Both the position numbers and the translations under genes were made by a program. This document shows positions 5,170 to 64,000 of a DNA stretch of 64,000 bases, in pieces. The stretch comes from Meghimatium bilineatum. Taxonomy: Eukaryota; Mollusca; Gastropoda; Stylommatophora; Philomycidae. Below the pieces are notes generated by a model. That model saw nothing but the letters and a program-made list of their open reading frames with translations. It had not been told where the DNA came from and did no database searches. Location: positions 34,569,280 to 34,633,279 of the forward strand of contig CM067309.1 in NCBI GenBank assembly GCA_034231615.1. The letters run 5' to 3'. The stretch's first letter is position 1. The number at the start of each line of letters is the position of its first letter.

Positions 5170-5440
5170 CTCTGATCATGAGGACTCGCGAAGAGCATTG
5201 AGTATGTCTGCTCGGTCCATAGGCTGACCGTTTGTTGTTGTGGCGAGACTAGCTAATTTGTTGGTCCGTTCGTTTCCCTCCATGCCCACATGTCCGGGGA
5301 CAAAAATAAGTGTGTTTTTGTAGTGATGCCCGCATTTTAGCTCTCTCTAATGACTCCGCCCATTCTCTACGTACATCATCAAGTGCCGTCTCCGCAACGA
5401 AGGTTGGCTGCAACGTATCTCCAACATCTCCTGTCTTGGT
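5170..5440 (-). mobile_element. RNase H domain of a LINE, 3' part
   Basis: Minus strand reads DDVRREWAESLERAKMRAS, then CGHGGKRTDQQIS and, past a shift, NGQPMDRADILNAL. This is the second half of a non-LTR RNase H. The first half lies at 5891-6300, with an RTE-like fragment between them. Confidence 0.7.
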
Positions 5441-5890
5441 GGTGCACTCTGCTAGACTGTAACCTGTCCATCGTGTAATGTTACTCTCCCACTTGTATCT
5501 CTGCCTACCTCTTGCTCGCTTCCCTTTGACTTTACCCTCAAGTAAGGTCTTCAATAGGGTGTCATGTCTTTTAATGTGTCCAAAGTATTTTATTTGCCTG
5601 ATCTTTATTTCTCTTAGTAATTCTTTCTTCATATTAAGTGTCTTTAGCACCTCTTTATTTGTTTTCTTCTCTTTCCATGATGTTCTCCCTATTCTTCTAT
5701 ATACCCACATCTCAAAGGCATCAATTTTGTCTTCTAATTGTTTATTTAGTGTCCATGTTTCTGAGCCATACATTAATATGGAATAGATGTAGCATTTTAT
5801 AATTCTCATTTTTAACTTGTTTGTAATTTGTTTAGATATTAATAATTTCCTCATGTCATTGAAGGTACTTTTAGCCATTCTTATTCTCCT
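5441..5890 (-). mobile_element. RTE-like LINE 3' end nested in the RNase H LINE
   Basis: A continuous minus-strand frame reads RIRMAKSTFNDMRKLL, then ILMYGSETWTL, FEMWVYRRIG and RQIKYFGHIKRHDTLLKTLL, ending GKRARGRQRYKW. This is the classic C-terminal part of an RTE-like endonuclease-reverse transcriptase. It is the best-preserved LINE protein stretch in the window and shows few lesions, which points to a fairly recent insertion. Confidence 0.8.
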
Positions 5891-6300
5891 TCTAACATCA
5901 CCAGTTTTGAATTGCTGACTCATATTCAGTGAATCGCTTAGTATGCATGCATCGGAATAGGTTTGCGATTCCAGCCAGTAAAACGCATGCGTTACCGCGA
6001 ATACTTCCATAGACTGCTCGTTGTTGCGGTAAATACACCACTGGCTTCGTGTACTGTTGTCTCTTTTGATCTGACAGTAAATGCCCATGCGCATCGCTGG
6101 TGACGGATGACCGACCCGTCCGTGCAAATCACATCTGAATCATCGGCATTCTTGCATATTAGTGCCTTGACCTCAGCATCCACGCTTACGTGGTTGTGTT
6201 TCCTGCACTCTCTGTTGAGTGTAGTGACGGTCTTGACTGCCTCTTGAAAGAACGTAGGAATATGTATCCATTCCTCGCCAGGAGATATGTCTTCTGAAAG
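5891..6300 (-). mobile_element. RNase H domain of a LINE, 5' part
   Basis: Minus strand reads MDAEVKALICKNADDSDVIC then TDGSVIRHQRCAWAF, the first strand and catalytic TDGS of non-LTR RNase H, and, in a shifted frame, EVFAVTHAFYWLESQTYSDA. At least one frameshift. A related stretch is at 8740-9030. Confidence 0.7.
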
Positions 6301-20200: not shown

Positions 20201-23200
20201 GTCTTGTGCCGTCATTGTCCAGGTTTGGAAATGGTAGCAGTGATGGGATAATAATAGTGTTTGAATATCAACACAAAATATGCAAGACACCTTGTCACAA
20301 TAAACCCACCTGAGTAGAAAAAGAAAGATTGTCTCCTCAAAGCACTGCAAATACTCAAATTTGGAGTCTCTTGAGTGTGAAAGTTACATTAGGCCCGTTG
20401 TATAAGAAAGTAGGGCAGTTACTCAAAACTCCTGGCACTGAACAACTTGAGGTTAAACATCTTCCAGTTGCACTGTGTCTGAAAGTTTTTTATATATGAA
20501 GTCCTATACAAGATCAAGCTTCCAGCAATAATCACCATGCTTGGTTCCATGTCTGGCTCTGTGGTCTGTGACCGCAAAGGTACTGAGTTCGGGCCCCAAC
20601 ACAGGCAAATACTACTGAATGTATCTATATTGCCTTGAAAAATAACCACAGCCAACAAATGCTGGGATGATAACTACGTCCTGAATAGGATATGCTACCT
20701 AATTTTTAAATTTTTTTGGGGGTTCCATTAAGACTCAGGTGATTGGGCTATGTTCAGAGTATAAGCAATAATATCATCCAAAAACAAATACTGTATGGGG
20801 AAACTCTGACAGGGTGTTGGAAGAAGTGGTAGACCAAAGTTGTGATACAAAGGTGTCTACAAATTGTCAATGAATCCTTTTGTGATCAATTCTGACAACT
20901 GGAAAAAGCTAGCAGAAGATTATCTCAGTCACATGAAGTAAAATCCTACACTGTTGAGCTAGGACATTTGAGAATTAAATATTGAATAGAAGAACTAAGG
21001 CTCAGACACAAGGAGCTATGGTCCAGCAATAAAATGCTTTCGTGGTGTACTCTGCTAGACCGTAACCTGTCCACCTGGTAATATTTCCCTCTCACTTGTA
21101 TCCCTGCCTGCCTCCTGCTCAACTCTAAACTCACGACGTCAACAAGGTGTCATGTCCTTTAATATGTTGAAAATACTTTATTTAGTTGATTTTAATTTAA
21201 TTTAATAGTTCTTTTTTCATACACAGTGTTGAAAAATCACTTTGTTTGTTTTGATCTCTTGAAGTTATTTCTTCTATATATCCACATCTAAAAGACATCA
21301 ATTATGTGTTCTATTTGTATGTTGATTATCCATGCTTCTGAGCCATACATTAGTGTAGAACAGAAGTAGCATTTTATAATTCTCATTTTTAGTTTGTGTG
21401 TGATTTGTGTAGATTTTAATATTTTCATTGAACATACTTTTAGCCATTCTAATTCTCTGTCGAATTTCTGTTATCTATTGTTGTTTCTCTGCTTTTGCAG
21501 TGAGACATTGCAGGATTGAATGGTGGCTCGTCTTCTGGCTATTGCACGTTTGATAGCTTGATATTCAGTAATACTGTGTTGTGTAGGAATATTGTGAACT
21601 CTTTCAATCCAATACCTAGAGCAGATTTCTGTTATAGCACTAAAAATTTCATGTACTATAATTCCAGGTTAAAAAAATGTCTCGTATTTCTCCCGCCAGG
21701 TAATCATTCAAGGTACGTACAAGCTACAGCAGGATGTAAACACTTTGATGTGTATGCTGGACCAGAGAACATTCCAGTTTCAAGAATGTCATTTAATGCT
21801 GTGGTAAGTAGCTTCGACTGCTGTTGTTGTTGATTGTCATCACATGATGATGATGAAGACCATTTGTTACATCCACTTTATGATAATTAGTTAGAGATAT
21901 GTCATTGACTAATGAGTTCACAGATGGCTAATAAGTCCTATCTTGGCCACAAAGATCCTTGGGCAAGATGGACGTCACTTCAGATGTTGTTTAATCTACC
22001 CGTTCCTTTCTAGCTAATCTCTGCTATTAAGCAGCTGAAATTCTCTTGTCACAAGATGATGAACTATTGTTACTGTAGTGCACCATGTAGCTCTGTTTTG
22101 TGTATCATCTTTCTTCAGTTTATGATGTTTTGTGTATCATCTTTCTTCAGTTTATGATGTTTTGTGTATCATCTTTCTTCAGTTTATGATGTTTTGTGTA
22201 TCATCTTTCTTCAGTTTATGATGTTTTGTGTATCATCTTTCTTCAGTTTATGATGTTTTGTGTATCATCTTTCTTCAGTTTATGATGTTTTGTGTATCAT
22301 CTTTCTTCAGTTTATGATGTTTTGTGTATCATCTTTCTTCAGTTTATGATGTTTTGTGTATCATCTTTCTTCAGTTTATGATGTTTTGTGTATCATCTTT
22401 CTTCAGTTTATGATGTTTTGTGTATCATCTTTCTTCAGTTTATGATGTTTTGTGTATCATCTTTCTTCAGTTTATGATGTTTTGTGTATCATCTTTCTTC
22501 AGTTTATGATGTTTTGTGTATCATCTTTCTTCAGTTTATGATGTTTTGTGTATCATCTTTCTTCAGTTTATGATGTTTTGTGTATCATCTTTCTTCAGTT
22601 TATGATGTTTTGTGTATCATCTTTCTTCAGTTTATGATGTTTTGTGTATCATCTTTCTTCAGTTTATGATGTTTTGTGTATCATCTTTCTTCAGTTTATG
22701 ATGTTTTGTGTATCATCTTTCTTCAGTTTATGATGTTTTGTGTATCATCTTTCTTCAGTTTATGATGTTTTGTGTATCATCTTTCTTCAGTTTATGATGT
22801 TTTGTGTATCATCTTTCTTCAGTTTATGATGTTTTGTGTATCATCTTTCTTCAGTTTATGATGTTTTGTGTATCATCTTTCTTCAGTTTATGATGTTTTG
22901 TGTATCATCTTTCTTCAGTTTATGATGTTTTGTGTATCATCTTTCTTCAGTTTATGATGTTTTTTTTTCCCCAACTTCTACTTGGAAATATATGAATTGA
23001 CACGTTTTGGGTTTTTTTGCCAACATTTATGTCATTGAAATGGTAGTGTTACATAGAACATACTTTCTATATTTATTTGTATATAGTAGTGTTTTTCTTC
23101 TTCTTCTTCTGCGTTCGTTCTCAAACTCCTGCAGATTAGCAGGATGTAGTCTGGAGAACGGAATGCGTTGTGTCATGGTTTACAGCATTGCTGCGATATT

Positions 23201-38200: not shown

Positions 38201-40827
38201 TTCTTCTGCATTTATTCTCAAACTCTTGCAGATAAACAGGGTGCGTCATATTATGGTTTACAGTTTGGCTGCAATATCCCTACCTTTCAGCCCAACACAT
38301 TTGATTTGTTGATGGGTTTGATGATGATCATTTAACCAAAAGAACTTCATCAACAACTAATTGTTTTACAAAAATTAGAATTATTTTTTTTTATATAATT
38401 AAGCCCCTCGGATTAATTTTATTTTCAGGACCAGTAATAGAATCAGAGGGCCGTGACAGACCAGATTTGAATTTTCCAGGAAATCAGTCACAATTGCTGA
38501 CAGATGTCTTGACTTTTAGTAAGTTATTTCAGGATAGACACCAAATTGTTCATGTTACCTTTGTATTTGTTACTTCACCATATTAAATTGTTTTTACCAT
38601 ATTTAAAACCACCATACTCAATGATTTACTTTTGTCTTCTATCAAATCAGTGTCATGGATGGGGAAGAGATACATGTCAGTGGACATTGAATGTTTTGTC
38701 CTTTTTTGGCAGACTCCTAGGTCTATCTATATATCTATCTATACGCTGTGGCCCTTGTTTGCCTTGCAGCATCAGGGGTGGAAGAGTTCTCTGGAGATGG
38801 CCTTCTTGTGCACTGTTTGTAAGCTTGTTCCTGTGTGACTTAGTAAGGATCTCCCTCTGTATTTCGTGTAGTCTCTCTTACTACCTTTACAGTAAGACTC
38901 CTTAAAGACTCCTAGGTGATGGGGAATACTAGATGTGCCATCACTGCCAATGGGTACACACATCTGACAGATGGATGATGAGATATTGACCCAGATGTGT
39001 ATGCTGTGCTCCTGGCAGGACATGGTAATCCTTGAATACTGGTAAACTGGAATGCCTTTCTTCAGGGACAAAACATGTGTCCATAAATCTTCCTTACACA
39101 GCCATACCTTTGAGACATCCTTATATGAGCCTTGGTGTCACCTCAGTTACACAACTGAGAAGAACTTGTGCTTTTGTCAGGAAGGCTATGGACTGTCAAG
39201 AGCTACCTGTTCACAGACCTTCTCAGACTCTTCTACTCCCATAGGGACATAACCCTAAAAATGTAAACAAATCTTAGTTACATGTTATATAAACTATTAA
39301 AAGAAAGTCTTTGATATTTTGTTACAGGTAGCACAAACAACATCATCCTGTTGCTGTTTAATGCTGGACCACTTAATCTGACTCACTATGATGAGCTTCC
39401 TCGTATTCCTGCCATCTTGGAGTTATTCTTCCCAGCTCAAGCTACAGGTGATGCCTTGGTTGCAGTACTGACCAACAAAGGAGGAAAAAGTAGTCCTGCA
39501 GGTAGACTTCCTGTTACCTGGCCCAAGTATGCATCACAGGTGAGTAATCAATATGAAAAATAATTAATGTATGAAGTACCAGACATATAGCAATATAGAA
39601 TTTAACCAGCTTGGTCATGGTGGCCTCTGTTAAATTTTTGTTATGTTAAAATTAGTATTAAATTCAAGTTGCCTAGCTTCAATCAAGTTAAAGCTTTAAA
39701 ATATAGGATAGAATTCAATATAAATGGATGACATAGATACTTCCAACCTTCACTGTTTTACATTAATCTAATGCCCTAGACATACAGGCATTTGTTGTTT
39801 CATAAGTAAACAGACTTGCATCCAAAACATCTGTAATCTTGAGGCCTTGGAGATGATTATGGGAGCCATACTTTTTCTTCATTTGCTCGTATAACCACAT
39901 AGATATTTGTTGTACAGTTTTTCTATCCATGGCCTACAGAAGAGACAAAGCAGACAGCTAAAAGTAAACTGCTTTTCTGAGATCTTTTTGTGACATATTG
40001 ACACAACATGCCTTCACACCTCCCTATTCCTTGTCACTGCAAAAGCCTACTTAAACATAAGCTGTACTGTTTACTTTGACTTCTCTAAATGGTCAAATGG
40101 CTAGTCTTGGGTCTTTTCTATATATGGTAGTTGAAGTCTGCCCTGCTCATTTCTAAGTTGAACATTTACCACCTCATCTCTTACTAACAATAAGTATCAA
40201 AGAGAGTTTTGAAGAATGTGCACAAAAAAAATGCCCTCAGACCAGATGACCTGAGTTTCAAATTCATTCATAACCTGTGGTTTGAAAAAATAAATTACTC
40301 CCGTGGTCCATTCAGTCATCAGAAAATGCATACCAAGGCTCCTGCTCTGACAAGTTTGAAGAATCACAATTGTTGCCGTGTACATGCCTAATGTAACACT
40401 CTATCCAAACCACCGGCTTGGCAGCTGAACACTTATGGCAAAACCATGTTCCATGATACTCAATTACCTTGACCTGTGTAATCAGTAGCCTCCTGTTTGC
40501 CTTGATACTTGGAGAATCTATGTAAAGCAAGACCACCAACTTAACTCATTCCATTGACAGAATGAAAAGTATACTTAAAACTATCTGTAAAGATATGTCT
40601 CTGACATATCTGATATTAGAAAGATGGAAGAATCCAAAATGACATACTATGTGAACAGATAATCAATAGCAATAGAAACTTCAATGATTGTCTCTCTCTC
40701 GTGTCTGTCAACAAGCTTCTCTCTTCCTTGTCTGTCAACAAGCTTCTCTCTTCCTTGTCTTTCAACAAGCTTATCTCTCTCACTTGTGTGTCACTTAGCT
40801 TATCTGTCGCCTTTCTCTGTAAACAAG

Positions 40828-44647: not shown

Positions 44648-44671
44648 TATTGTTTAACAGTTCCTTTTGTT

Positions 44672-45392
44672 GTTATCTAACATTATTTTATACTAAAGCT
44701 GTCCAAGTCAACTTTTGTTGTCTCTAATATTTTGTTGTGCTAAAATTGTCCAATGTCACCTTTTATTGTCTCTAACATTTTGTTATACTAAAATTGTCCA
44801 ATGTCACCTTTTATTGTCTCTAACATTTTGTTATACTAAAATTGTCCAATGTCACCTTTTATTGTCTCTAACATTTTGTTATACTAAAATTGTCCAATGT
44901 CACCTTTTATTGTCTCTAACATTTTGTTATACTAAAATTGTCCAATGTCACCTTTTATTGTCTCTAACATTTTGTTATACTAAAATTGTCCAATGTCACC
45001 TTTTATTGTCTCTAACATTTTGTTATACTAAAATTGTCCAATGTCACCTTTTATTGTCTCTAACATTTTGTTATACTAAAATTGTCCAATGTCACCTTTT
45101 ATTGTCTCTAACATTTTGTTATACTAAAATTGTCCAATGTCACCTTTTATTGTCTCTAACATTTTGTTATACTAAAATTGTCCAATGTCACCTTTTATTG
45201 TCTCTAACATTTTGTTATACTAAAATTGTCCAATGTCACCTTTTATTGTCTCTAACATTTTGTTATACTAAAATTGTCCAATGTCACCTTTTATTGTCTC
45301 TAACATTTTGTTATACTAAAATTGTCCAATGTCACCTTTTGTTGTCTCTAACATTTTGTTGTGCTAAAGTTGTCCAATTTAACATTTTGTTA
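44672..45392. repeat. 48-bp minisatellite, about 15 units, from the GH3 3' UTR
   Basis: Unit is TCTCTAACATTTTGTTATAC, then TAAAATTGTCCAATGTCACC and TTTTATTG. Inner units look identical; end units decay. A weaker unit-like stretch begins at the GH3 stop codon (44643). The period is a multiple of three, giving a 236-codon frame of a repeated 16-residue peptide that I do not take as a gene. Confidence 0.93.
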
Positions 45393-45609
45393 TCTTCTCT
45401 GTATTTTTTTCATCAGCACATCTGAACACATGAGATTACATTACTGATTTTCTTCTGGACTGCAACTCTACAATGGATGCCAGAATCAATTTACATGTAT
45501 AATATATTATTCTCAGTCCTTGCTTTGAAAGATTCAAACAATCAGTTCAATATGAGTTGATGTTGTCAATTTCTGCTTTCATGTTCCTGGGTATAACATG
45601 AATATATCA

Positions 45610-45760
45610 CCAAAGTCAGACATGTTGGGCCATTGTCGCAAATAAAACTGAAACTCTTTGCATTTCCATTATGTGGACTACATCCTACTGGAAATTTAGT
45701 AGGACCATTGTCCTGTTTTGAGACAGATCCAGTGGAAGTTTGAGAAAGAATGCAAAAAAC
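45610..45760 (+). mobile_element. SINE-like repeat family A, copy after GH3
   Basis: GACATGTTGGGCCATTGTCG, TGTGGACTACATCCTACTGG and AGTTTGAGAAAGAATGC match the family; the AAG tail is short. Confidence 0.65.
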
Positions 45761-45764
45761 ACCA

Positions 45765-46515
45765 GAACATGGATCTACTGCCCTAGACATGTTGACTTTC
45801 ATAGTAACAAGAGAACAGACAGACTTGCTTAAAAATACATCTGTAGTCTTCGAAGTTGACGATGGATAAGTAGGTGTGCCGATGTGTGATACGTATCTTC
45901 CAGTTGCGGATACTGTGATAAATGAGGTTGTGGTTGTTAAAATGCTGTATTTGGTGTAGCATGATTGGGACTGGGAACGTGTATGACAGAATGTGCAGTG
46001 TACTTAACCAGTAAATCAATTAAATCAATACCCTTTATCCTCTGCTGGGAGATACTGGGTATTTGTTGGTTTGACCTGAGTGCAATTATGTCAGCTTCTA
46101 ACCAACAATCGTACTATGTGCTCTGATTACAACTGCCTAAAATGTAGGTCAACTAACTAGGTAAACGAACAGGGTTTCATTAGGGTTAGAAACAGTAACA
46201 TTACATTTGCATGTGAACATATCAGTGCTACTTCCACTCTATATCTATAATAAGTACGCTCGAAGCCAAGAAGTGAGAAAGATCTGAGATTATCAGAACA
46301 CATAATACCCAATAATAGATTTAGTTAAAGATTTCACAGATTATCATACAAGTTAACCTTTTTATTTCTCCTGGATTATTGTCCTCATTTTTATATGAAG
46401 GATCTTCCTTTGAATTTTCTTTGACCACTAAATGTGAACAAGTTAAGAACTCAGTAACTTTAATAGCTTTTTATTTTATAATAAAACCTATTATATTATA
46501 TATCATAGGGAAAAA
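45765..46515. other. Spacer, nothing recognised
   Basis: No coding, RNA or repeat signal found on either strand. Confidence 0.4.
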
Positions 46516-46746
46516 AAATGACTGCAGGATTAAATTTCTAGTAGGATGTAATATTATGTGATTAGTTATGTATGGGAGAAACGGTGAGTGAAAAATGATT
46601 GCAGGATTAAATTTCTAGTAGTATGTAATATTATGTGATTAGTTATGTATGGGAGAAACGGTGAGTGAAAAATGATTGCAGGATTAAATTTCTAGTAGTA
46701 TGTAATATTATGTGATTAGTTATGTATGGGAGAAACGGTGAGTAAA
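46516..46746. repeat. Three tandem copies of a 77-bp unit
   Basis: TGCAGGATTAAATTTCTAGT occurs at 46523, 46600 and 46677. Units are nearly identical and each contains ACGGTGAGT, a 5' splice-site-like string. Confidence 0.9.
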
Positions 46747-47092
46747 AAAGCAACAAAAGAATGACCAGATTAATCAGCAAGAAATTATTTATGGCCAAAT
46801 TATAATAGCTCATGATACTTCATCACGGCCCCACTCGTCCCCCATAATCCAATTGTATTTAATAAATTTAGGCATACATATGCATATTTACTGTTTCTAG
46901 ATGAGGATATTCCGATATCCTGTAGAATTTCTAAATTAATACTGAAACCACACAAATTAACTCACAGTGTACATAAAACATCAATGAGGAAAGGTATGCT
47001 TTTAGATCAATTTTATATGAATATTTCTCCAAATATACCAACATGCTTACAAATACATTCATCATATATTAGCATCACCATTTGATTCTGCA

Positions 47093-50000
47093 GCATCAAC
47101 TGTCTCAGAAATATATTGTTGTCTCATCAACTGTCTCAGAAATATATTGCTGTCTCATCAACTGTCTCATACATGTATTGCTGTCTCATCAACTGTCTCA
47201 TACATGTATTGCTGTCTCATCAACTGTCTCAGAAATGTATTGTTGTCTCATCAACTGTCTCATACATGTATTGCTGTCTCATCAACTGTCTCAGAAATGT
47301 ATTGCTGTCTCATCAACTGTCTCAGAAATGTATTGCTGTCTCATCAACTGTCTCATACATGTATTGCTGTCTCATCAACTGTCTCAGAAATGTATTGTTG
47401 TCTCATCAACTGTCTCATACATGTATTGCTGTCTCATCAACTGTCTCAGAAATGTATTGCTGTCTCATCAACTGTCTCAGAAATGTATTGCTGTCTCATC
47501 AACTGTCTCAAAAATGTATTGCTGTCTCATCAACTGTCTCATACATGTATTGCTGTCTCATCAACTGTCTCATACATGTATTGCTGTCTCATCAACTGTC
47601 TCAGAAATGTATTGTTGTCTCATCAACTGTCTCATACATGTATTGCTGTCTCATCAACTGTCTCAGAAATGTATTGCTGTCTCATCAACTGTCTCATACA
47701 TGTATTGCTGTCTCATCAACTGTCTCAAAAATGTATTGCTGTCTCATCAACTGTCTCATACATGTATTGCTGTCTCATCAACTGTCTCAGAAATGTATTG
47801 TTGTCTCATCAACTGTCTCATACATGTATTGCTGTCTCATCAACTGTCTCAAAAATGTATTGCTGTCTCATCAACTGTCTCATACATGTATTGCTGTCTC
47901 ATCAACTGTCTCAAAAATGTATTGCTGTCTCATCAACTGTCTCATACATGTATTGCTGTCTCATCAACTGTCTCAGAAATGTATTGTTGTCTCATCAACT
48001 GTCTCATACATGTATTGCTGTCTCATCAACTGTCTCAGAAATGTATTGCTGTCTCATCAACTGTCTCAGAAATGTATTGCTGTCTCATCAACTGTCTCAA
48101 AAATGTATTGCTGTCTCATCAACTGTCTCATACATGTATTGCTGTCTCATCAACTGTCTCATACATGTATTGCTGTCTCATCAACTGTCTCAGAAATGTA
48201 TTGTTGTCTCATCAACTGTCTCATACATGTATTGCTGTCTCATCAACTGTCTCAGAAATGTATTGCTGTCTCATCAACTGTCTCAGAAATGTATTGCTGT
48301 CTCATCAACTGTCTCAGAAATGTATTGCTGTCTCATCAACTGTCTCATACATGTATTGCTGTCTCATCAACTGTCTCATACATGTATTGCTGTCTCATCA
48401 ACTGTCTCAGAAATGTATTGTTGTCTCATCAACTGTCTCATACATGTATTGCTGTCTCATCAACTGTCTCAGAAATGTATTGCTGTCTCATCAACTGTCT
48501 CAGAAATGTATTGCTGTCTCATCAACTGTCTCAACAATGTATTGCTGTCTCATCAACTGTCTCAAAAATGTATTGCTGTCTCATCAACTGTCTCAAAAAT
48601 GTATTGCTGTCTCATCAACTGTCTCAAAAATGTATTGCTGTCTCATCAACTGTCTCATACATGTATTGCTGTCTCATCAACTGTCTCATACATGTATTGC
48701 TGTCTCATCAACTGTCTCAGAAATGTATTGCTGTCTCATCAACTGTCTCAAAAATGTATTGCTGTCTCATCAACTGTCTCAAAAATGTATTGCTGTCTCA
48801 TCAACTGTCTCAACAATGTATTGCTGTCTCATCAACTGTCTCAAAAATGTATTGCTGTCTCATCAACTGTCTCATACATGTATTGCTGTCTCATCAACTG
48901 TCTCAACAATGTATTGCTGTCTCATCAACTGTCTCATACATGTATTGCTGTCTCATCAACTGTCTCAACAATGTATTGCTGTCTCATCAACTGTCTCAGA
49001 AATGTATTGCTGTCTCATCAACTGTCTCAAAAATGTATTGCTGTCTCATCAACTGTCTCAGAAATGTATTGCTGTCTCATCAACTGTCTCAGAAATGTAT
49101 TGCTGTCTCATCAACTGTCTCATACATGTATTGCTGTCTCATCAACTGTCTCATACATGTATTGCTGTCTCATCAACTGTCTCAGAAATGTATTGTTGTC
49201 TCATCAACTGTCTCATACATGTATTGCTGTCTCATCAACTGTCTCAGAAATGTATTGCTGTCTCATCAACTGTCTCAGAAATGTATTGTTGTCTCATCAA
49301 CTGTCTCAAAAATATATTGCTGTCTCATCAACTGTCTCAGAAATGTATTGATGTCTCATCAACTGTCTCATACATGTATTGCTGTCTCATCAACTGTCTC
49401 AGAAATGTATTGTTGTCTCATCAACTGTCTCATACATGTATTGCTGTCTCATCAACTGTCTCAGAAATGTATTGCTGTCTCATCAACTGTCTCATACATG
49501 TATTGCTGTCTCATCAACTGTCTCAGAAATGTATTGCTGTCTCATCAACTGTCTCAGAAATGTATTGCTGTCTCATCAACTGTCTCAGAAATGTATTGCT
49601 GTCTCATCAACTGTCTCATACATGTATTGCTGTCTCATCAACTGTCTCATACATGTATTGCTGTCTCATCAACTGTCTCAGAAATGTATTGTTGTCTCAT
49701 CAACTGTCTCATACATGTATTGCTGTCTCATCAACTGTCTCAGAAATGTATTGCTGTCTCATCAACTGTCTCAGAAATGTATTGCTGTCTCATCAACTGT
49801 CTCAACAATGTATTGCTGTCTCATCAACTGTCTCAAAAATGTATTGCTGTCTCATCAACTGTCTCAAAAATGTATTGCTGTCTCATCAACTGTCTCATAC
49901 ATGTATTGCTGTCTCATCAACTGTCTCAGAAATGTATTGCTGTCTCATCAACTGTCTCATACATGTATTGCTGTCTCATCAACTGTCTCAGAAATGTATT

Positions 50001-53000
50001 GCTGTCTCATCAACTGTCTCAGAAATGTATTGCTGTCTCATCAACTGTCTCAAAAATGTATTGCTGTCTCATCAACTGTCTCAAAAATGTATTGCTGTCT
50101 CATCAACTGTCTCAACAATGTATTGCTGTCTCATCAACTGTCTCAAAAATGTATTGCTGTCTCATCAACTGTCTCATACATGTATTGCTGTCTCATCAAC
50201 TGTCTCAACAATGTATTGCTGTCTCATCAACTGTCTCATACATGTATTGCTGTCTCATCAACTGTCTCAACAATGTATTGCTGTCTCATCAACTGTCTCA
50301 GAAATGTATTGCTGTCTCATCAACTGTCTCAAAAATGTATTGCTGTCTCATCAACTGTCTCAGAAATGTATTGTTGTCTCATCAACTGTCTCAGAAATGT
50401 ATTGCTGTCTCATCAACTGTCTCATACATGTATTGCTGTCTCATCAACTGTCTCATACATGTATTGCTGTCTCATCAACTGTCTCAGAAATGTATTGTTG
50501 TCTCATCAACTGTCTCAAAAATATATTGCTGTCTCATCAACTGTCTCAGAAATGTATTGATGTCTCATCAACTGTCTCATACATGTATTGCTGTCTCATC
50601 AACTGTCTCAGAAATGTATTGTTGTCTCATCAACTGTCTCATACATGTATTGCTGTCTCATCAACTGTCTCAGAAATGTATTGATGTCTCATCAACTGTC
50701 TCAGAAATGTATTGTTGTCTCATCAACTGTCTCAGAAATGTATTGTTGTCTCATCAACTGTCTCAAAAATATATTGCTGTCTCATCAACTGTCTCAGAAA
50801 TGTATTGATGTCTCATCAACGGTCTCATACATGTATTGCTGTCTCATCAACTGTCTCAGAAATGTATTGATGTCTCATCAACTGTCTCAGAAATGTATTG
50901 TTGTCTCATCAACTGTCTCAAAAATATATTGCTGTCTCATCAACTGTCTCAGAAATGTATTGATGTCTCATCAACTGTCTCATACATGTATTGCTGTCTC
51001 ATCAACTGTCTCAAAAATGTATTGCTGTCTCATCAACTGTCTCAAAAATATATTGCTGTCTCATCAACTGTCTCAAAAATGTATTGCTGTCTCATCAACT
51101 GTCTCAAAAATGTATTGCTGTCTCATCAACTGTCTCAACAATGTATTGCTGTCTCATCAACTGTCTCAAAAATGTATTGCTGTCTCATCAACTGTCTCAT
51201 ACATGTATTGCTGTCTCATCAACTGTCTCAACAATGTATTGCTGTCTCATCAACTGTCTCATACATGTATTGCTGTCTCATCAACTGTCTCAACAATGTA
51301 TTGCTGTCTCATCAACTGTCTCAGAAATGTATTGCTGTCTCATCAACTGTCTCAAAAATGTATTGCTGTCTCATCAACTGTCTCAGAAATGTATTGCTGT
51401 CTCATCAACTGTCTCAGAAATGTATTGCTGTCTCATCAACTGTCTCATACATGTATTGCTGTCTCATCAACTGTCTCAGAAATGTATTGTTGTCTCATCA
51501 ACTGTCTCAAAAATATATTGCTGTCTCATCAACTGTCTCAGAAATGTATTGATGTCTCATCAACTGTCTCATACATGTATTGCTGTCTCATCAACTGTCT
51601 CAGAAATGTATTGTTGTCTCATCAACTGTCTCATACATGTATTGCTGTCTCATCAACTGTCTCAGAAATGTATTGATGTCTCATCAACTGTCTCAGAAAT
51701 GTATTGTTGTCTCATCAACTGTCTCAGAAATGTATTGTTGTCTCATCAACTGTCTCAAAAATATATTGCTGTCTCATCAACTGTCTCAGAAATGTATTGA
51801 TGTCTCATCAACTGTCTCATACATGTATTGCTGTCTCATCAACTGTCTCAGAAATGTATTGATGTCTCATCAACTGTCTCAGAAATGTATTGATGTCTCA
51901 TCAACTGTCTCATACATGTATTGCTGTCTCATCAACTGTCTCAGAAATGTATTGATGTCTCATCAACTGTCTCAGAAATGTATTGTTGTCTCATCAACTG
52001 TCTCAAAAATATATTGCTGTCTCATCAACTGTCTCAGAAATGTATTGCTGTCTCATCAACTGTCTCAGAAATGTATTGTTGTCTCATCAACTGTCTCAAA
52101 AATATATTGCTGTCTCATCAACTGTCTCAGAAATGTATTGATGTCTCATCAACTGTCTCATACATGTATTGCTGTCTCATCAACTGTCTCAGAAATGTAT
52201 TGTTGTCTCATCAACTGTCTCATACATGTATTGCTGTCTCATCAACTGTCTCAGAAATGTATTGCTGTCTCATCAACTGTCTCATACATGTATTGCTGTC
52301 TCATCAACTGTCTCAGAAATGTATTGCTGTCTCATCAACTGTCTCAGAAATGTATTGCTGTCTCATCAACTGTCTCAGAAATGTATTGCTGTCTCATCAA
52401 CTGTCTCATACATGTATTGCTGTCTCATCAACTGTCTCATACATGTATTGCTGTCTCATCAACTGTCTCAGAAATGTATTGTTGTCTCATCAACTGTCTC
52501 ATACATGTATTGCTGTCTCATCAACTGTCTCAGAAATGTATTGCTGTCTCATCAACTGTCTCAGAAATGTATTGCTGTCTCATCAACTGTCTCAACAATG
52601 TATTGCTGTCTCATCAACTGTCTCAAAAATGTATTGCTGTCTCATCAACTGTCTCAAAAATGTATTGCTGTCTCATCAACTGTCTCATACATGTATTGCT
52701 GTCTCATCAACTGTCTCAGAAATGTATTGCTGTCTCATCAACTGTCTCATACATGTATTGCTGTCTCATCAACTGTCTCAGAAATGTATTGCTGTCTCAT
52801 CAACTGTCTCAGAAATGTATTGCTGTCTCATCAACTGTCTCAAAAATGTATTGCTGTCTCATCAACTGTCTCAAAAATGTATTGCTGTCTCATCAACTGT
52901 CTCAACAATGTATTGCTGTCTCATCAACTGTCTCAAAAATGTATTGCTGTCTCATCAACTGTCTCATACATGTATTGCTGTCTCATCAACTGTCTCAACA

Positions 53001-56000
53001 ATGTATTGCTGTCTCATCAACTGTCTCATACATGTATTGCTGTCTCATCAACTGTCTCAACAATGTATTGCTGTCTCATCAACTGTCTCAGAAATGTATT
53101 GCTGTCTCATCAACTGTCTCAAAAATGTATTGCTGTCTCATCAACTGTCTCAGAAATGTATTGTTGTCTCATCAACTGTCTCAGAAATGTATTGCTGTCT
53201 CATCAACTGTCTCATACATGTATTGCTGTCTCATCAACTGTCTCATACATGTATTGCTGTCTCATCAACTGTCTCAGAAATGTATTGTTGTCTCATCAAC
53301 TGTCTCAAAAATATATTGCTGTCTCATCAACTGTCTCAGAAATGTATTGATGTCTCATCAACTGTCTCATACATGTATTGCTGTCTCATCAACTGTCTCA
53401 GAAATGTATTGTTGTCTCATCAACTGTCTCATACATGTATTGCTGTCTCATCAACTGTCTCAGAAATGTATTGATGTCTCATCAACTGTCTCAGAAATGT
53501 ATTGTTGTCTCATCAACTGTCTCAGAAATGTATTGTTGTCTCATCAACTGTCTCAAAAATATATTGCTGTCTCATCAACTGTCTCAGAAATGTATTGATG
53601 TCTCATCAACGGTCTCATACATGTATTGCTGTCTCATCAACTGTCTCAGAAATGTATTGATGTCTCATCAACTGTCTCAGAAATGTATTGTTGTCTCATC
53701 AACTGTCTCAAAAATATATTGCTGTCTCATCAACTGTCTCAGAAATGTATTGATGTCTCATCAACTGTCTCATACATGTATTGCTGTCTCATCAACTGTC
53801 TCAAAAATGTATTGCTGTCTCATCAACTGTCTCAAAAATATATTGCTGTCTCATCAACTGTCTCAAAAATGTATTGCTGTCTCATCAACTGTCTCAAAAA
53901 TGTATTGCTGTCTCATCAACTGTCTCAACAATGTATTGCTGTCTCATCAACTGTCTCAAAAATGTATTGCTGTCTCATCAACTGTCTCATACATGTATTG
54001 CTGTCTCATCAACTGTCTCAACAATGTATTGCTGTCTCATCAACTGTCTCATACATGTATTGCTGTCTCATCAACTGTCTCAACAATGTATTGCTGTCTC
54101 ATCAACTGTCTCAGAAATGTATTGCTGTCTCATCAACTGTCTCAAAAATGTATTGCTGTCTCATCAACTGTCTCAGAAATGTATTGCTGTCTCATCAACT
54201 GTCTCAGAAATGTATTGCTGTCTCATCAACTGTCTCATACATGTATTGCTGTCTCATCAACTGTCTCAGAAATGTATTGTTGTCTCATCAACTGTCTCAA
54301 AAATATATTGCTGTCTCATCAACTGTCTCAGAAATGTATTGATGTCTCATCAACTGTCTCATACATGTATTGCTGTCTCATCAACTGTCTCAGAAATGTA
54401 TTGTTGTCTCATCAACTGTCTCATACATGTATTGCTGTCTCATCAACTGTCTCAGAAATGTATTGATGTCTCATCAACTGTCTCAGAAATGTATTGTTGT
54501 CTCATCAACTGTCTCAGAAATGTATTGTTGTCTCATCAACTGTCTCAAAAATATATTGCTGTCTCATCAACTGTCTCAGAAATGTATTGATGTCTCATCA
54601 ACTGTCTCATACATGTATTGCTGTCTCATCAACTGTCTCAGAAATGTATTGATGTCTCATCAACTGTCTCAGAAATGTATTGATGTCTCATCAACTGTCT
54701 CATACATGTATTGCTGTCTCATCAACTGTCTCAGAAATGTATTGATGTCTCATCAACTGTCTCAGAAATGTATTGTTGTCTCATCAACTGTCTCAAAAAT
54801 ATATTGCTGTCTCATCAACTGTCTCAGAAATGTATTGATGTCTCATCAACTGTCTCATACATGTATTGCTGTCTCATCAACTGTCTCAGAAATGTATTGA
54901 TGTCTCATCAACTGTCTCATACATGTATTGCTGTCTCATCAACTGTCTCAGAAATGTATTGCTGTCTCATCAACTGTCTCAGAAATGTATTGCTGTCTCA
55001 TCAACTGTCTCAGAAATGTATTGCTGTCTCATCAACTGTCTCATACATGTATTGCTGTCTCATCAACTGTCTCATACATGTATTGCTGTCTCATCAACTG
55101 TCTCAGAAATGTATTGTTGTCTCATCAACTGTCTCATACATGTATTGCTGTCTCATCAACTGTCTCAGAAATGTATTGCTGTCTCATCAACTGTCTCAGA
55201 AATGTATTGCTGTCTCATCAACTGTCTCAAAAATGTATTGCTGTCTCATCAACTGTCTCAAAAATGTATTGCTGTCTCATCAACTGTCTCAACAATGTAT
55301 TGCTGTCTCATCAACTGTCTCAAAAATGTATTGCTGTCTCATCAACTGTCTCAAAAATGTATTGCTGTCTCATCAACTGTCTCATACATGTATTGCTGTC
55401 TCATCAACTGTCTCAGAAATGTATTGCTGTCTCATCAACTGTCTCATACATGTATTGCTGTCTCATCAACTGTCTCAGAAATGTATTGCTGTCTCATCAA
55501 CTGTCTCAGAAATGTATTGCTGTCTCATCAACTGTCTCAAAAATGTATTGCTGTCTCATCAACTGTCTCAAAAATGTATTGCTGTCTCATCAACTGTCTC
55601 AACAATGTATTGCTGTCTCATCAACTGTCTCAAAAATGTATTGCTGTCTCATCAACTGTCTCATACATGTATTGCTGTCTCATCAACTGTCTCAACAATG
55701 TATTGCTGTCTCATCAACTGTCTCATACATGTATTGCTGTCTCATCAACTGTCTCAAAAATGTATTGCTGTCTCATCAACTGTCTCAGAAATGTATTGCT
55801 GTCTCATCAACTGTCTCAGAAATGTATTGCTGTCTCATCAACTGTCTCATACATGTATTGCTGTCTCATCAACTGTCTCATACATGTATTGCTGTCTCAT
55901 CAACTGTCTCAGAAATGTATTGCTGTCTCATCAACTGTCTCAGAAATGTATTGTTGTCTCATCAACTGTCTCATACATGTATTGCTGTCTCATCAACTGT

Positions 56001-59000
56001 CTCAGAAATGTATTGCTGTCTCATCAACTGTCTCAGAAATGTATTGCTGTCTCATCAACTGTCTCAACAATGTATTGCTGTCTCATCAACTGTCTCAAAA
56101 ATGTATTGCTGTCTCATCAACTGTCTCAAAAATGTATTGCTGTCTCATCAACTGTCTCATACATGTATTGCTGTCTCATCAACTGTCTCAGAAATGTATT
56201 GCTGTCTCATCAACTGTCTCAGAAATGTATTGCTGTCTCATCAACTGTCTCAGAAATGTATTGCTGTCTCATCAACTGTCTCATACATGTATTGCTGTCT
56301 CATCAACTGTCTCAACAATGTATTGCTGTCTCATCAACTGTCTCAGAAATGTATTGCTGTCTCATCAACTGTCTCAGAAATGTATTGCTGTCTCATCAAC
56401 TGTCTCAGAAATGTATTGCTGTCTCATCAACTGTCTCAAAAATGTATTGCTGTCTCATCAACTGTCTCAAAAATGTATTGCTGTCTCATCAACTGTCTCA
56501 ACAATGTATTGCTGTCTCATCAACTGTCTCAAAAATGTATTGCTGTCTCATCAACTGTCTCATACATGTATTGCTGTCTCATCAACTGTCTCAACAATGT
56601 ATTGCTGTCTCATCAACTGTCTCATACATGTATTGCTGTCTCATCAACTGTCTCAACAATGTATTGCTGTCTCATCAACTGTCTCAGAAATGTATTGCTG
56701 TCTCATCAACTGTCTCAAAAATGTATTGCTGTCTCATCAACTGTCTCAGAAATGTATTGCTGTCTCATCAACTGTCTCAGAAATGTATTGCTGTCTCATC
56801 AACTGTCTCATACATGTATTGCTGTCTCATCAACTGTCTCATACATGTATTGCTGTCTCATCAACTGTCTCAGAAATGTATTGTTGTCTCATCAACTGTC
56901 TCAAAAATATATTGCTGTCTCATCAACTGTCTCAGAAATGTATTGATGTCTCATCAACTGTCTCATACATGTATTGCTGTCTCATCAACTGTCTCAGAAA
57001 TGTATTGTTGTCTCATCAACTGTCTCATACATGTATTGCTGTCTCATCAACTGTCTCAGAAATGTATTGATGTCTCATCAACTGTCTCATACATGTATTG
57101 CTGTCTCATCAACTGTCTCAGAAATGTATTGCTGTCTCATCAACTGTCTCAGAAATGTATTGCTGTCTCATCAACTGTCTCAGAAATGTATTGCTGTCTC
57201 ATCAACTGTCTCATACATGTATTGCTGTCTCATCAACTGTCTCATACATGTATTGCTGTCTCATCAACTGTCTCAGAAATGTATTGTTGTCTCATCAACT
57301 GTCTCATACATGTATTGCTGTCTCATCAACTGTCTCAGAAATGTATTGCTGTCTCATCAACTGTCTCAGAAATGTATTGCTGTCTCATCAACTGTCTCAA
57401 AAATGTATTGCTGTCTCATCAACTGTCTCAAAAATGTATTGCTGTCTCATCAACTGTCTCAACAATGTATTGCTGTCTCATCAACTGTCTCAAAAATGTA
57501 TTGCTGTCTCATCAACTGTCTCAAAAATGTATTGCTGTCTCATCAACTGTCTCATACATGTATTGCTGTCTCATCAACTGTCTCAGAAATGTATTGCTGT
57601 CTCATCAACTGTCTCATACATGTATTGCTGTCTCATCAACTGTCTCAGAAATGTATTGCTGTCTCATCAACTGTCTCAAAAATGTATTGCTGTCTCATCA
57701 ACTGTCTCAAAAATGTATTGCTGTCTCATCAACTGTCTCAAAAATGTATTGCTGTCTCATCAACTGTCTCATACATGTATTGCTGTCTCATCAACTGTCT
57801 CAACAATGTATTGCTGTCTCATCAACTGTCTCATACATGTATTGCTGTCTCATCAACTGTCTCAAAAATGTATTGCTGTCTCATCAACTGTCTCAGAAAT
57901 GTATTGCTGTCTCATCAACTGTCTCAAAAATGTATTGCTGTCTCATCAACTGTCTCAAAAATGTATTGCTGTCTCATCAACTGTCTCAAAAATGTATTGC
58001 TGTCTCATCAACTGTCTCAAAAATGTATTGCTGTCTCATCAACTGTCTCAACAATGTATTGCTGTCTCATCAACTGTCTCAAAAATGTATTGCTGTCTCA
58101 TCAACTGTCTCATACATGTATTGCTGTCTCATCAACTGTCTCAAAAATGTATTGCTGTCTCATCAACTGTCTCATACATGTATTGCTGTCTCATCAACTG
58201 TCTCAAAAATGTATTGCTGTCTCATCAACTGTCTCAGAAATGTATTGCTGTCTCATCAACTGTCTCAAAAATGTATTTCTGTCTCATCAACTGTCTCAAC
58301 AATGTATTGCTGTCTCATCAACTGTCTCAAAAATGTATTGCTGTCTCATCAACTGTCTCATACATGTATTGCTGTCTCATCAACTGTCTCAACAATGTAT
58401 TGCTGTCTCATCAACTGTCTCATACATGTATTGCTGTCTCATCAACTGTCTCAAAAATGTATTGCTGTCTCATCAACTGTCTCAGAAATGTATTGCTGTC
58501 TCATCAACTGTCTCATACATGTATTGCTGTCTCATCAACTGTCTCATACATGTATTGCTGTCTCATCAACTGTCTCATACATGTATTGCTGTCTCATCAA
58601 CTGTCTCAGAAATGTATTGTTGTCTCATCAACTGTCTCAAAAATATATTGCTGTCTCATCAACTGTCTCAGAAATGTATTGCTGTCTCATCAACTGTCTC
58701 ATACATGTATTGCTGTCTCATCAACTGTCTCAGAAATGTATTGCTGTCTCATCAACTGTCTCAAAAATGTATTGTTGTATCATCAACTGTCTCAACAATG
58801 TATTGCTGTCTCATCAACTGTCTCAACAATGTATTGCTGTCTCATCAACTGTCTCAGAAATATATTGTTGTATCATCAACTGTCTCAGAAATGTATTGCT
58901 GTCTCATCAACTGTCTCAACAATGTATTGCTGTCTCATCAACTGTCTCAGAAATGTATTGTTGTCTCATCAACTGTCTCAACAATGTATTGCAGTCTCAT

Positions 59001-61503
59001 CAACTGTCTCAGAAATGTATTGCTGTCTCATCAACTGTCTCAACAATGTATTGCTGTCTCATCAACTGTCTCAACAATGTATTGCTGTCTCATCAACTGT
59101 CTCAGAAATATATTGTTGTATCATCAACTGTCTCAGAAATGTATTGCTGTCTCATCAACTGTCTCAACAATGTATTGCTGTCTCATCAACTGTCTCAGAA
59201 ATGTATTGTTGTCTCATCAACTGTCTCAACAATGTATTGTTGTCTCATCAACTGTCTCAGAAATGTATTGCTGTCTCATCAACTGTCTCAACAATGTATT
59301 GTTGTCTCATCAACTGTCTCAACAATGTATTGTTGTCTCATCAACTGTCTCAACAATGTATTGCAGTCTCATCAACTGTCTCAGAAATGTATTGTTGTCT
59401 CATCAACTGTCTCAACAATGTATTGCAGTCTCATCAACTGTCTCAGAAATGTATTGCTGTCTCATCAACTGTCTCATACATGTATTGCTGTCTCATCAAC
59501 TGTCTCAACAATGTATTGCTGTCTCATCAACTGTCTCAACAATGTATTGCTGTCTCATCAACTGTCTCAACAATGTATTGCTGTCTCATCAACTGTCTCA
59601 ACAATGTATTGCAGTCTCATCAACTGTCTCAGAAATGTATTGCTGTCTCATCAACTGTCTCATACATGTATTGCTGTCTCATCAACTGTCTCAACAATGT
59701 ATTGCAGTCTCATCAACTGTCTCAACAATGTATTGCAGTCTCATCAACTGTCTCAGAAATGTATTGTTGTCTCATCAACTGTCTCAACAATGTATTGCAG
59801 TCTGATCAACTGTCTCAGAAATGTATTGCTGTCTCATCAACTGTCTCATACATGTATTGCTGTCTCATCAACTGTCTCAACAATGTATTGCTGTCTCATC
59901 AACTGTCTCAACAATGTATTGCTGTCTCATCAACTGTCTCAACAATGTATTGCTGTCTCATCAACTGTCTCAACAATGTATTGCTGTCTCATCAACTGTC
60001 TCAACAATGTATTGCTGTCTCATCAACTGTCTCAACAATGTATTGCAGTCTCATCAACTGTCTCAGAAATGTATTGCTGTCTCATCAACTGTCTCATACA
60101 TGTATTGCTGTCTCATCAACTGTCTCATACATGTATTGCTGTCTCATCAACTGTCTCAGAAATGTATTGTTGTATCATCAACTGTCTCAACAATGTATTG
60201 CTGTCTCATCAACTGTCTCAACAATGTATTGCTGTCTCATCAACTGTCTCAACAATGTATTGCAGTCTCATCAACTGTCTCAGAAATGTATTGCTGTCTC
60301 ATCAACTGTCTCATACATGTATTGCTGTCTCATCAACTGTCTCAACAATGTATTGCTGTCTCATCAACTGTCTCATACATGTATTGCTGTCTCATCAACT
60401 GTCTCAACAATGTATTGCTGTCTCATCAACTGTCTCAACAATGTATTGCTGTCTCATCAACTGTCTCAACAATGTATTGCTGTCTCATCAACTGTCTCAA
60501 CAATGTATTGCAGTCTCATCAACTGTCTCATACATGTATTGCTGTCTCATCAACTGTCTCAACAATGTATTGCTGTCTCATCAACTGTCTCAACAATGTA
60601 TTGCTGTCTCATCAACTGTCTCAACAATGTATTGCTGTCTCATCAACTGTCTCAACAATGTATTGCTGTCTCATCAACTGTCTCATACATGTATTGCTGT
60701 CTCATCAACTGTCTCAACAATGTATTGCTGTCTCATCAACTGTCTCAACAATGTATTGCTGTCTCATCAACTGTCTCAACAATGTATTGCTGTCTCATCA
60801 ACTGTCTCAACAATGTATTGCAGTCTCATCAACTGTCTCAGAAATGTATTGCTGTCTCATCAACTGTCTCAGAAATGTATTGCTGTCTCATCAACTGTCT
60901 CAACAATGTATTGCTGTCTCATCAACTGTCTCATACATGTATTGCTGTCTCATCAACTGTCTCAACAATGTATTGCTGTCTCATCAACTGTCTCAACAAT
61001 GTATTGCTGTCTCATCAACTGTCTCAACAATGTATTGCTGTCTCATCAACTGTCTCAACAATGTATTGCAGTCTCATCAACTGTCTCAGAAATGTATTGC
61101 TGTCTCATCAACTGTCTCAGAAATGTATTGCTGTCTCATCAACTGTCTCAGAAATGTATTGTTGTATCATCAACTGTCTCAACAATGTATTGCTGTCTCA
61201 TCAACTGTCTCAACAATGTATTGCTGTCTCATCAACTGTCTCATACATGTATTGCTGTCTCATCAACTGTCTCAACAATGTATTGCTGTCTCATCAACTG
61301 TCTCAACAATGTATTGCTGTCTCATCAACTGTCTCAACAATGTATTGCTGTCTCATCAACTGTCTCAACAATGTATTGCAGTCTCATCAACTGTCTCAGA
61401 AATGTATTGCTGTCTCATCAACTGTCTCAGAAATGTATTGCTGTCTCATCAACTGTCTCAGAAATATATTGTTGTATCATCAACTGTCTCAGAAATGTAT
61501 TGC
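47093..61503. repeat. Giant 31-bp minisatellite, about 465 units, 14.4 kb
   Basis: Unit is TGCTGTCTCATCAACTGTCT then CAGAAATGTAT. Almost all variation falls in two slots. After CTCA the unit reads GAAATG, TACATG, AAAATG or ACAATG; after TTG it reads CTGT, TTGT, ATGT or CAGT. Units with ACAATG and CAGT dominate right of about 58.75 kb, while GAAATG, TACATG and AAAATG dominate to the left, so the array has two domains. No spacers and no insertions were seen. Edge units carry AATATATTG. With 31 bp, three units make 31 codons and all forward frames stay open for long stretches. Confidence 0.97.
49222..54837. repeat. Tandem 2790-bp higher-order duplication within the giant array
   Basis: 49222-52047 matches 52012-54837 at an offset of 2790 bp, exactly 90 units. 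Frames in several phases give the same peptides at both places, and a private change (CAACGGTCTC instead of CAACTGTCTC) recurs at 50821 and 53611. The match breaks at 49221/52011 and 52048/54838. Confidence 0.85.
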
Positions 61504-61641
61504 TTGTTAAACAATCTTTTAAAGTTTCACATTACCAGTACGACAATGCTCTCATAATTTTATTAAATGAATCTATCAGAAAACTCACTACATGTGATTA
61601 ATGAAATTTACATAAATACTTGGCAAAACAATGAACTAGGG

Positions 61642-63043
61642 CAGGGGTGGGCAAACTTTTTGTACAGAGGGCCACATTGAAAATTGCAAAACTATTGGAG
61701 GGCCACATATAATATTATGTATATTTTTGTTTAAAATTCTCGGTAAGTAATCAATTAAAATATTTTTAGTAAAGAAAGGTAGTTTTACATAATGTAGATA
61801 ACTTCTGAAATAAATTACATTTCTAACAGACTTACACTATAACAGTATATTTTCTAATATGGATAAAAGGTTTTGCAAATATTTTAACAATAGTTGAAAA
61901 ATAGTATGTTGCATACAGTTACAATATGGGTTCATATCAATAGTTTTAATGAAGATTTTTAAAAACACCATACACATACAGTTACAACTTTATTGATATT
62001 ATTAATTTCTAATGAGATGTATGTAATTGCTTGTAAGATGTTATACTTTCTTTGAAATCTGGAACAAGTTTACTTGTAGAAATTTGCATGACTGCATTTA
62101 AGTTGTAATCAGATAATAAAGACCTATTCTTAGATTTGTTGATTTTTAAGCAAGAAAATGCCTGTTCACAAATATATGTAGATCCAAATAATGACAAAAA
62201 TTTAGCTGCAAAGTTTTTTAAGTTTGGGAATGATTGTTCAGGCAAAGAACCATAGAAATCCAACATTCAGACTTAAAGTTTTCCTTCAGGTAATGATTGG
62301 CTTGTAATTCAAGCAACTTCAACTGTATGTGCTCTGGGGCTTTATCAGTTTCTACACTGAGAGGAGAACTGATAACTTTGAAGTGCTACTTAAAGTTCTT
62401 GAAATCTTGGAATCTTCTTCCAAATTCTTCAACCAATACATCTAACTGAGATTTGAATTTTTTACTCATTTCATCAGAAATAGTTTCTTATTTCAGCAAA
62501 AGGAAGGGACAAAACATGTTTTCACTTGCTTGTCTGGAAAACAGTGAGAGTTTGGCTTGAAATGATTTTACATGAACATACATTTCATGTGCAAACAAAC
62601 CATTGCCCTGAAGTTCAATAAAATTGACATTCAGCCTATATTGACATTCAGTTCAATAAAGTCAAACTTCCACTCTGCATCAACAATGTTAGCATTGAAG
62701 TCACATTCTATGCCCTTCATCTCTAGAAACATTACTATTTCTTCTTTAAGATCCCATACTCTCCTTAAAACCTTTCCGAGACTCAACCATCGAACTGTAC
62801 TGTGGTGCAGGACATCAGACTGTTCAGTTTCTAGATTGTCTAGTAATGCTCTGAACTGCCTGTGATTGAGTCCTCTTGATCTGATGAGATTTATGACACT
62901 GACAACTGGGCCTATAACATGCTTAATTTTTAAAACAGATTTACAGTGATGATCGTTCGTTTATTTAAAAATATGTTTAAGGGCCGCAAAATATCCAATG
63001 GCAGGCCGCATGCAGCCCGCGGGTCATAATTTGCCCACCCCTG
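61642..63043 (-). mobile_element. hAT (Charlie-like) DNA transposon with decayed transposase
   Basis: Terminal inverted repeats CAGGGGTGGGCAAA and TTTGCCCACCCCTG are perfect over 14 bp. ACTAGGG flanks both sides (61635-61641, 63044-63050), a target duplication with the CTAG centre expected of hAT elements. The minus strand carries transposase pieces: HHSTVRWLSLGKVLRRVWDL and FLEMKGIECDF (about 62860-62690), then PEQSFPNLKNFAAKF and STYICEQAFSCLKINKSKNR (62250-62110), the C-terminal dimerisation region. Stops and deletions leave no full frame, so it is inactive. Confidence 0.9.
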
Positions 63044-63050
63044 ACTAGGG

Positions 63051-64000
63051 GTATAAAATTCAAGATAAGTCTCACTAATCTATTTTGGAGGTGCTTGCAA
63101 CACGAACAAACAACACAATCAATAAATAATTTTAAAATATAAATAGCTACATTAAGCCTACCTGTGGATACAGTAACACAAATATGGGAATCTCACTGGC
63201 GTAGTTGTCAAGCCATTTGCTTTGTTCTCAAAGAGGTCACAGGTCAAATTTGGCTGTGTTATATTTTTTTATAAAGTTTATTTTTTCCTGAGTTTCACTG
63301 GGGATTATAGCTTGAAGCAATAAAAACGGAGTAGGCCTATGTAGTGTGAGTGGTACTCTCAGTAAGTGGCATGCCACTTCATTGAGAGGGACTGAGTATG
63401 TATAGGATAACCCAAGTACAGTGAAGTCATTCTTCTACTTCTTACGGACTCTGAACATTCACTAACGTCAAGCACTTTGAGTGAAAATCATCCGGTTTTA
63501 ATTGTCCAGTTTCATCAATGCACTAAAATGTTGTATTTTGTTTGATTCACTAATCCATGTTTACTTATGTGCTGTGATGTTTCTTGTTTAGGAACAAACA
63601 TCACAGCACTGGGGACATTCCAATATATGCTCTGCTTGCCGTTCCATCAGCCAACCAAACATGTATAAGCTCAGTGTCCCAGTCAGTGTTATTCGATGAG
63701 AACCTGAGCCTATCGCTGATGGAACAGATGTCTACCACAGAGTACGTAATCTGTTGCTCCAGCGACTGCTCCTTTCATCTTGAGTGCTGTCTGCCAAATG
63801 TGAATTTAAACTACACACTTGATTTAAAGACAAGATCTGCAAATGACGTCATCCCATTGAGCATGCTAAATGTGTGTGAACCAAAGATTGCCATTTTTAT
63901 TAAGGTCATCGTATATGTATGTGTATATATGCTGTGATGAGATTGTATAGACCTATGTATTTACCAAATCTCTACAGTGTCTTGATTTTGATGAAATTGA
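63051..64000. other. Right end of window, nothing supported
   Basis: An open frame at 63584-63937 (117 codons) follows a TTCTTGTTTAG acceptor-like site. It has no recognisable motif and its phase does not fit the GH3 gene. It could be an exon of another gene or chance. Confidence 0.35.

Follow-up and report, generated by a model that had tools for sequence, protein, structure and literature searches.

A 14.4-kb minisatellite of 31-bp units downstream of one GH3-glycosidase gene, probably shaped by in-register unequal exchange of unit blocks

How does a tandem array of several hundred units come to vary almost only in two short slots of each unit? This question is raised by an array in a 64,000-nucleotide stretch of Meghimatium bilineatum DNA (C12:34,569,280-34,633,279; hereafter the window, in whose coordinates positions are given). 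A first-pass annotation had offered two answers: that blocks of units were copied again and again, as opposed to mutating freely, or that the invariant part is under selection. We consider it probable, at roughly 0.78, that the array is a non-coding, single-locus minisatellite in the spacer 3' of one GH3-glycosidase gene, and that it has been shaped by in-register unequal exchange of blocks. The unit count, the register, a block duplication, a domain change and the absence of the array from the matching interval at three paralogues are direct observations.

Units and their occurrence in the genome

TRF placed the array at 47094-61504 on the plus strand. Its 465 units, counted from 47095, follow one another at exactly 31 bp in 464 of 464 spacings, and these 14.4 kb contain no insertions or deletions; the annotated coordinates and the estimate of about 465 units of 31 bp are thus confirmed. 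There are 18 unit types, including one that is the truncated unit at the right edge, and the eight commonest make up 449 of the 465 units. When the units are aligned, 10 of 31 columns are variable. Columns 13-15 and 24-25 (numbered from 0) hold 588 of the 621 departures from consensus among 464 units. The annotated confinement to two slots therefore holds for the bulk of the variation but not for all of it, as column 18 varies in 23 units and column 28 in six, and one or two units depart at each of columns 6, 23 and 30. Four states per slot is the right count for the narrow slots, which take GAA/AAA/ACA/TAC and CT/TT/AT/CA. The TACATG state does create a palindrome, TACATGTA, which is present in 120 of 465 units. 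A dimer of TACATG units folds somewhat better than its shuffles, with z -1.64 on the plus strand (15 of 200 shuffles equally good) and z -2.07 on the minus strand (4 of 200).

A unit of 31 bp repeated 465 times lies within the 9-100 bp given for minisatellite units (PMC2599865), and 14.4 kb lies within the array length of about 0.5-30 kb (PMC8122249). The array is a real, large minisatellite of an already known kind, and it has probably been active recently. Long stop-to-stop frames run through it, the longest of 2305 codons, and for seven of the eight commonest types a run of that type by itself is stop-free in every plus-strand frame, as a coding repeat would require. However, the unit length does not preserve the reading frame: 31 is not a multiple of three, so the three frames are taken in turn from unit to unit and the same peptide, rotated, appears in all of them, and type F (28 units) introduces a stop in one frame. 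That the repeat is coding is scarcely credible.

The array is one locus in the genome. A unit pattern allowing the main states had 442 forward and no reverse matches across the 1.61-Gb, 32-contig genome, with a control of zero, and the window itself accounts for 442. When up to three mismatches were allowed, there were 466 forward and one reverse matches (control 0 and 0) versus 464 and none in the window, which leaves two forward and one reverse looser matches elsewhere in the genome. Similarity searches skip very common words and omit the array itself, which makes them blind to near-identical copies, and the pattern counts are the real test. All that they met was other minisatellites or weak places, at 65-75% identity. 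With a 908-base query, 19 hits of 65-71% identity were listed. Eight of them were taken as loci L001-L008, L004 overlapping L006; these hold minisatellites of other units, with periods of 15, 26, 29, 30 and 31 at the match, and a dispersed family was rejected. Some of these minisatellites have ACTGTCTCA in common. A 124-base query gave three weak places. A multi-locus satellite family with higher-order repeats was also rejected, the 442 genome-wide matches equalling the 442 in the array. Viral and prokaryote contigs gave no exact match to the unit. A search of open full texts, its sequence-based part limited to four unit words, listed no paper on this repeat; the unit words met four papers, in each of which a single 13-base word occurs once, and titles and abstract openings mark these as unrelated.

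Minisatellites seem to be common in this genome. When the array is set aside, 15.3% of the window consists of tandem repeats with a period of at least 9. Coverage of 5 kb at six random places (one per contig, from 19 drawn at random) was 52.9, 23.6, 26.7, 11.2 and 8.5%, with the sixth, L040, taken as 0 as TRF printed nothing for it. A 32-bp minisatellite at 22094-22963 consists of 27 copies, all identical.

The GH3 gene cluster and its paralogous intervals

About 2.4 kb separate the array from a GH3-glycosidase gene on its upstream side. This gene is marked by an exon-like match to the GH3 C-terminal domain (PF01915) at 39315-39560 on the plus strand (C12:34608594-34608839; 50.8 bits, above the cut-off) and by one to the Fn3-like domain (PF14310) at 44405-44581, also on the plus strand, in a frame with its stop at 44645-44647. 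The Fn3-like frame met no match in a structure search. Genome-wide, at least 11 GH3-C and at least 12 Fn3-like matches are listed, and nine of each lie on C12 at 34.36-34.75 Mb; the others among the matches listed are two GH3-C and two Fn3-like on C22 and one Fn3-like on C7. To judge by these matches, those on C12 represent a tandem GH3 gene cluster. It comprises about nine GH3-glycosidase genes on both strands at C12:34362466-34748903. Two of the nine C12 GH3-C matches contain a stop codon. The starts of successive plus-strand Fn3-like matches are 46.7, 48.8, 75.8 and 48.2 kb apart, and the longest gap is the one that holds the array.

Paralogous sites were compared at the other four plus-strand genes (L053-L056), over some 4.4 kb on the downstream side of each; the four minus-strand C12 genes were left out. 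Right after the GH3 stop codon in the window, TRF places a 48-bp minisatellite at 44663-45378 on the plus strand, which occurs also at two of the four paralogues (L053 303-1141; L055 290-411 and 1168-1706) with copy numbers that differ among the three genes. It was not seen in the approximately 4.4 kb downstream of the gene in L054 and L056. On the far side of the array, a downstream anchor in common with L053 starts at 63892-64000 (plus strand) and continues into L057, the likeness being weaker in the window than in L057. Within this anchor, L057 41-843 matches L053 2431-3226 and L057 32-418 matches L055 3561-3914; in L054 the likeness is limited to two short pieces, at 681-808 and 1044-1103. 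L056 has no downstream anchor in the stretch examined. The interval between the common parts is about 18.5 kb at the array versus about 1, 1.9 and 0.3 kb in L053, L055 and L054, respectively. The best unit-like sequence in the paralogue stretches is 21/31 (L053, L055 and L056) or 20/31 (L054), which is the level of five shuffles each. Because the matching intervals of three paralogues are short and lack unit-like sequence, the array, together with an adjoining hAT element, probably arrived once the genes had duplicated; loss at the paralogues is a less simple reading than gain here.

The hAT remnant occupies 61642-63043, 137 bp to the right of the array, and has 14-bp inverted ends, a likely target repeat (ACTAGGG) and a hAT dimerisation fragment at 62012-62266 on the minus strand. 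An array carried inside a transposon was tried and rejected: inverted repeats sought within each flank gave none longer than 13-15 bases across the array, comparison of 44000-47093 with 61505-64000 on both strands gave nothing beyond 13-15 bases, and the adjacent hAT has its own ends. Also in the window, a dispersed element of about 150 bp lies at about 45601-45799; its copies are 77-86% alike, occur on many contigs and are SINE-like by behaviour (the whole query had 3857 first-look candidates). Two open frames look like those of retroelements. They lie at 5249-6139 on the minus strand, which has no Pfam match and was so judged by eye, and at 16406-16972 on the plus strand, which has an RNase H match. 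The Pfam run covered 28 of the 94 open frames of at least 70 codons outside arrays. The window gave no RNA families at gathering scores and no tRNA or tmRNA genes.

Block exchange, two domains and two slots

Each unit was encoded by type and the code string was compared with itself, as the first-pass annotation had proposed. An exact tandem block of 90 units (2790 bp) appeared, its first copy at 49234-52023 (units 70-159) and its second at 52024-54813 (units 160-249), both on the plus strand and without a base difference between them. The offset equals the block's own length, and identity extends 12 bp leftward and 24 bp rightward, 36 bp in all. The longest exact repeats in ten shuffled strings were 5-7 units and in ten first-order Markov strings 7-11 units, far below the 90 observed. 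Words of units 70-249 are used again in units 250-376 (score 56, versus at most 18 in 100 shuffles), and the reused words differ by gains or losses of whole units. A higher-order-repeat satellite with a constant multi-unit period was rejected, since the 90-unit block occurs only twice and no other lag is prominent.

The data are one assembly, and an error of assembly could lie behind the perfect duplication: a tandem copy of 2790 bp without any difference is what misjoining of a repeat would produce, and the real array could then be shorter or otherwise ordered. One false join cannot, however, yield two domains together with reused, non-identical words, and we regard such an artefact as quite improbable.

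The two domains are separated near 58.75 kb, as annotated. The best change point is at unit 376, or window position 58751, with a log-likelihood gain of 89.2 versus at most 21.9 in 100 shuffles, which are a lenient null as they destroy block structure. The left domain (47095-58750, plus strand, units 1-376) is rich in types A, B, D, E, F and G, and the right domain (58751-61504, plus strand, units 377-465) in types C (ACA) and H (ACA with CA). The border is further borne out by word order, of which the domains share none (score 8; shuffled mean 8.15, maximum 12). The two domains are probably parts of the array whose turnover became separate.

Replication slippage by one or a few units would also make every length step a whole number of units, as is observed. 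It predicts runs of like neighbours, however, and in the array adjacent units resemble each other barely more than units paired at random (lag-1 excess 0.068). By the same measures, ten other arrays had lag-1 excesses of -0.03 to 0.46, with eight of the ten at 0.16 or less. Among 1650 arrays simulated with different block sizes, 175 were accepted on number of types and diversity, and a fit was scored when an accepted array also matched lag-1 likeness and repeat coverage. With mean blocks of 1-4 units, the median lag-1 excess was 0.48-0.93 and none of 50 fit; with a mean of 6 units two of eight fit, and with a mean of 8 or more 80 of 117. Slippage as the builder of this array is therefore very unlikely. 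The 90-unit duplication, the reuse of left-domain words and the low likeness of neighbours together give good support to the annotated copying of unit blocks as opposed to free mutation.

The other half of the opening question is whether selection preserves the invariant frame, which might serve as a binding site or an RNA, while two slots are left free to vary. The concentration of 588 of 621 departures in five columns favours it. The seven common-variant columns are clustered on the 31-bp circle at a borderline level, tested post hoc (p 0.059 for one arc, 0.073 for two arcs). When column 15 is dropped, so that the double change TAC is counted once (column 15 changes with 13), p is 0.127 and 0.211, and for all ten variable columns clustering is absent (p 0.77 and 0.47). 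In accepted simulations with 5-9 common columns and whole units copied without in-unit exchange, the two-arc value was reached in 5 of 77 and the one-arc value in 2 of 77; when every simulation that had exactly seven common columns is taken, the counts were 2 of 47 and 0 of 47. This rarity counts against our favoured model as well as for selection. By these counts the clustering is out of the ordinary only at a level of a few per cent or so, and a mild restriction may be compatible with it.

The number of variable columns bears on the same choice. Ten or fewer were seen in none of 25 whole-unit simulations near the observed type count and diversity, and in 8 of 117 with a looser match, which speaks for selection. 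Six column pairs display all four combinations of states, so either exchange inside units or repeated mutation is needed; recurrent mutation at favoured sites could also produce the combinations. We ran 900 simulations with whole-unit copying (48 accepted) and 900 in which a junction could fall at any point of the unit (31 accepted). Ten or fewer variable columns arose in 13 of the 31 accepted arrays with in-unit junctions (median 11) versus 0 of 48 with whole-unit copying (median 16.5), and at least six four-combination pairs in 14 of 31 versus 6 of 48. With junctions inside units, selection on the frame would not be needed for the few variable columns. Further points against it are that about a dozen distinct changes represent few independent events and that the stretches examined at four paralogues have no unit-like sequence. 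Of the two alternatives originally offered, block copying stands, but selection on the invariant part is not established; the two-slot confinement is at most weak evidence for it, and we judge such selection unlikely.

The preferred reading is thus exchange of blocks in register. The array would have grown and stayed uniform through unequal sister-chromatid crossing-over or gene conversion, with exchanged blocks that range from about ten units to several tens and junctions anywhere within units. A few old point mutations, copied and recombined, would then give the 18 unit types and the appearance of two slots with states. A 90-unit exact repeat occurred in none of the 31 accepted arrays with in-unit junctions (6 of 48 with whole-unit copying), so the favoured model has to be supplemented, either by a single big event in the recent past or by block sizes with a heavier tail. 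We infer the molecular process, its neutrality and its timing from these comparisons.

With 465 units, no insertions or deletions, few mutations and paralogous sites free of the array, this is a clean system for separating block exchange from slippage, and it illustrates how strikingly restricted variation may arise with little or no selection. A bolder, doubtful suggestion is that the array is a readable exchange record, in which in-unit junctions give block sizes and rates from one allele, and that it may promote unequal exchange between neighbouring GH3 genes.

Comparison with known systems

One comparison is with the 48-bp minisatellite of the GH3 genes (window 44663-45378, L053 and L055). 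Both are tandem repeats in the gene's 3' region; the 48-bp repeat occurs at three of the five GH3 genes examined, the 31-bp array at one only.

Among human hypervariable minisatellites read as variant-repeat maps, MSY1 has a 25-bp unit with 75% A+T in 48-118 copies; its like units are grouped in blocks, and mutation alters it by 1-3 units (PMC2599865). The 31-bp array resembles it in having tandem units of tens of bases, few base-substitution variants and, as is reported for MSY1, no units of odd length (PMC2599865). It differs from MSY1 in its 465 units, counted in one assembly, versus 48-118, and in unit types that are interspersed and copied in blocks of tens, again as known from one assembly (PMC2599865). 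Interspersed types are reported for many autosomal minisatellites, and this the 31-bp array shares with them (PMC2599865).

In the Smith model, the higher-order repeats of satellites are kept alike through unequal crossover (PMC8122249). Like such satellites, the 31-bp array would be homogenised by exchange, with blocks of several units copied whole; unlike them, it is one 14.4-kb locus with non-array flanks, no constant higher-order period and a large block present only twice (PMC8122249). The accounts of the Smith model with its successors and of MSY1 describe processes of the kind that explains the 31-bp array (PMC2599865, PMC8122249).
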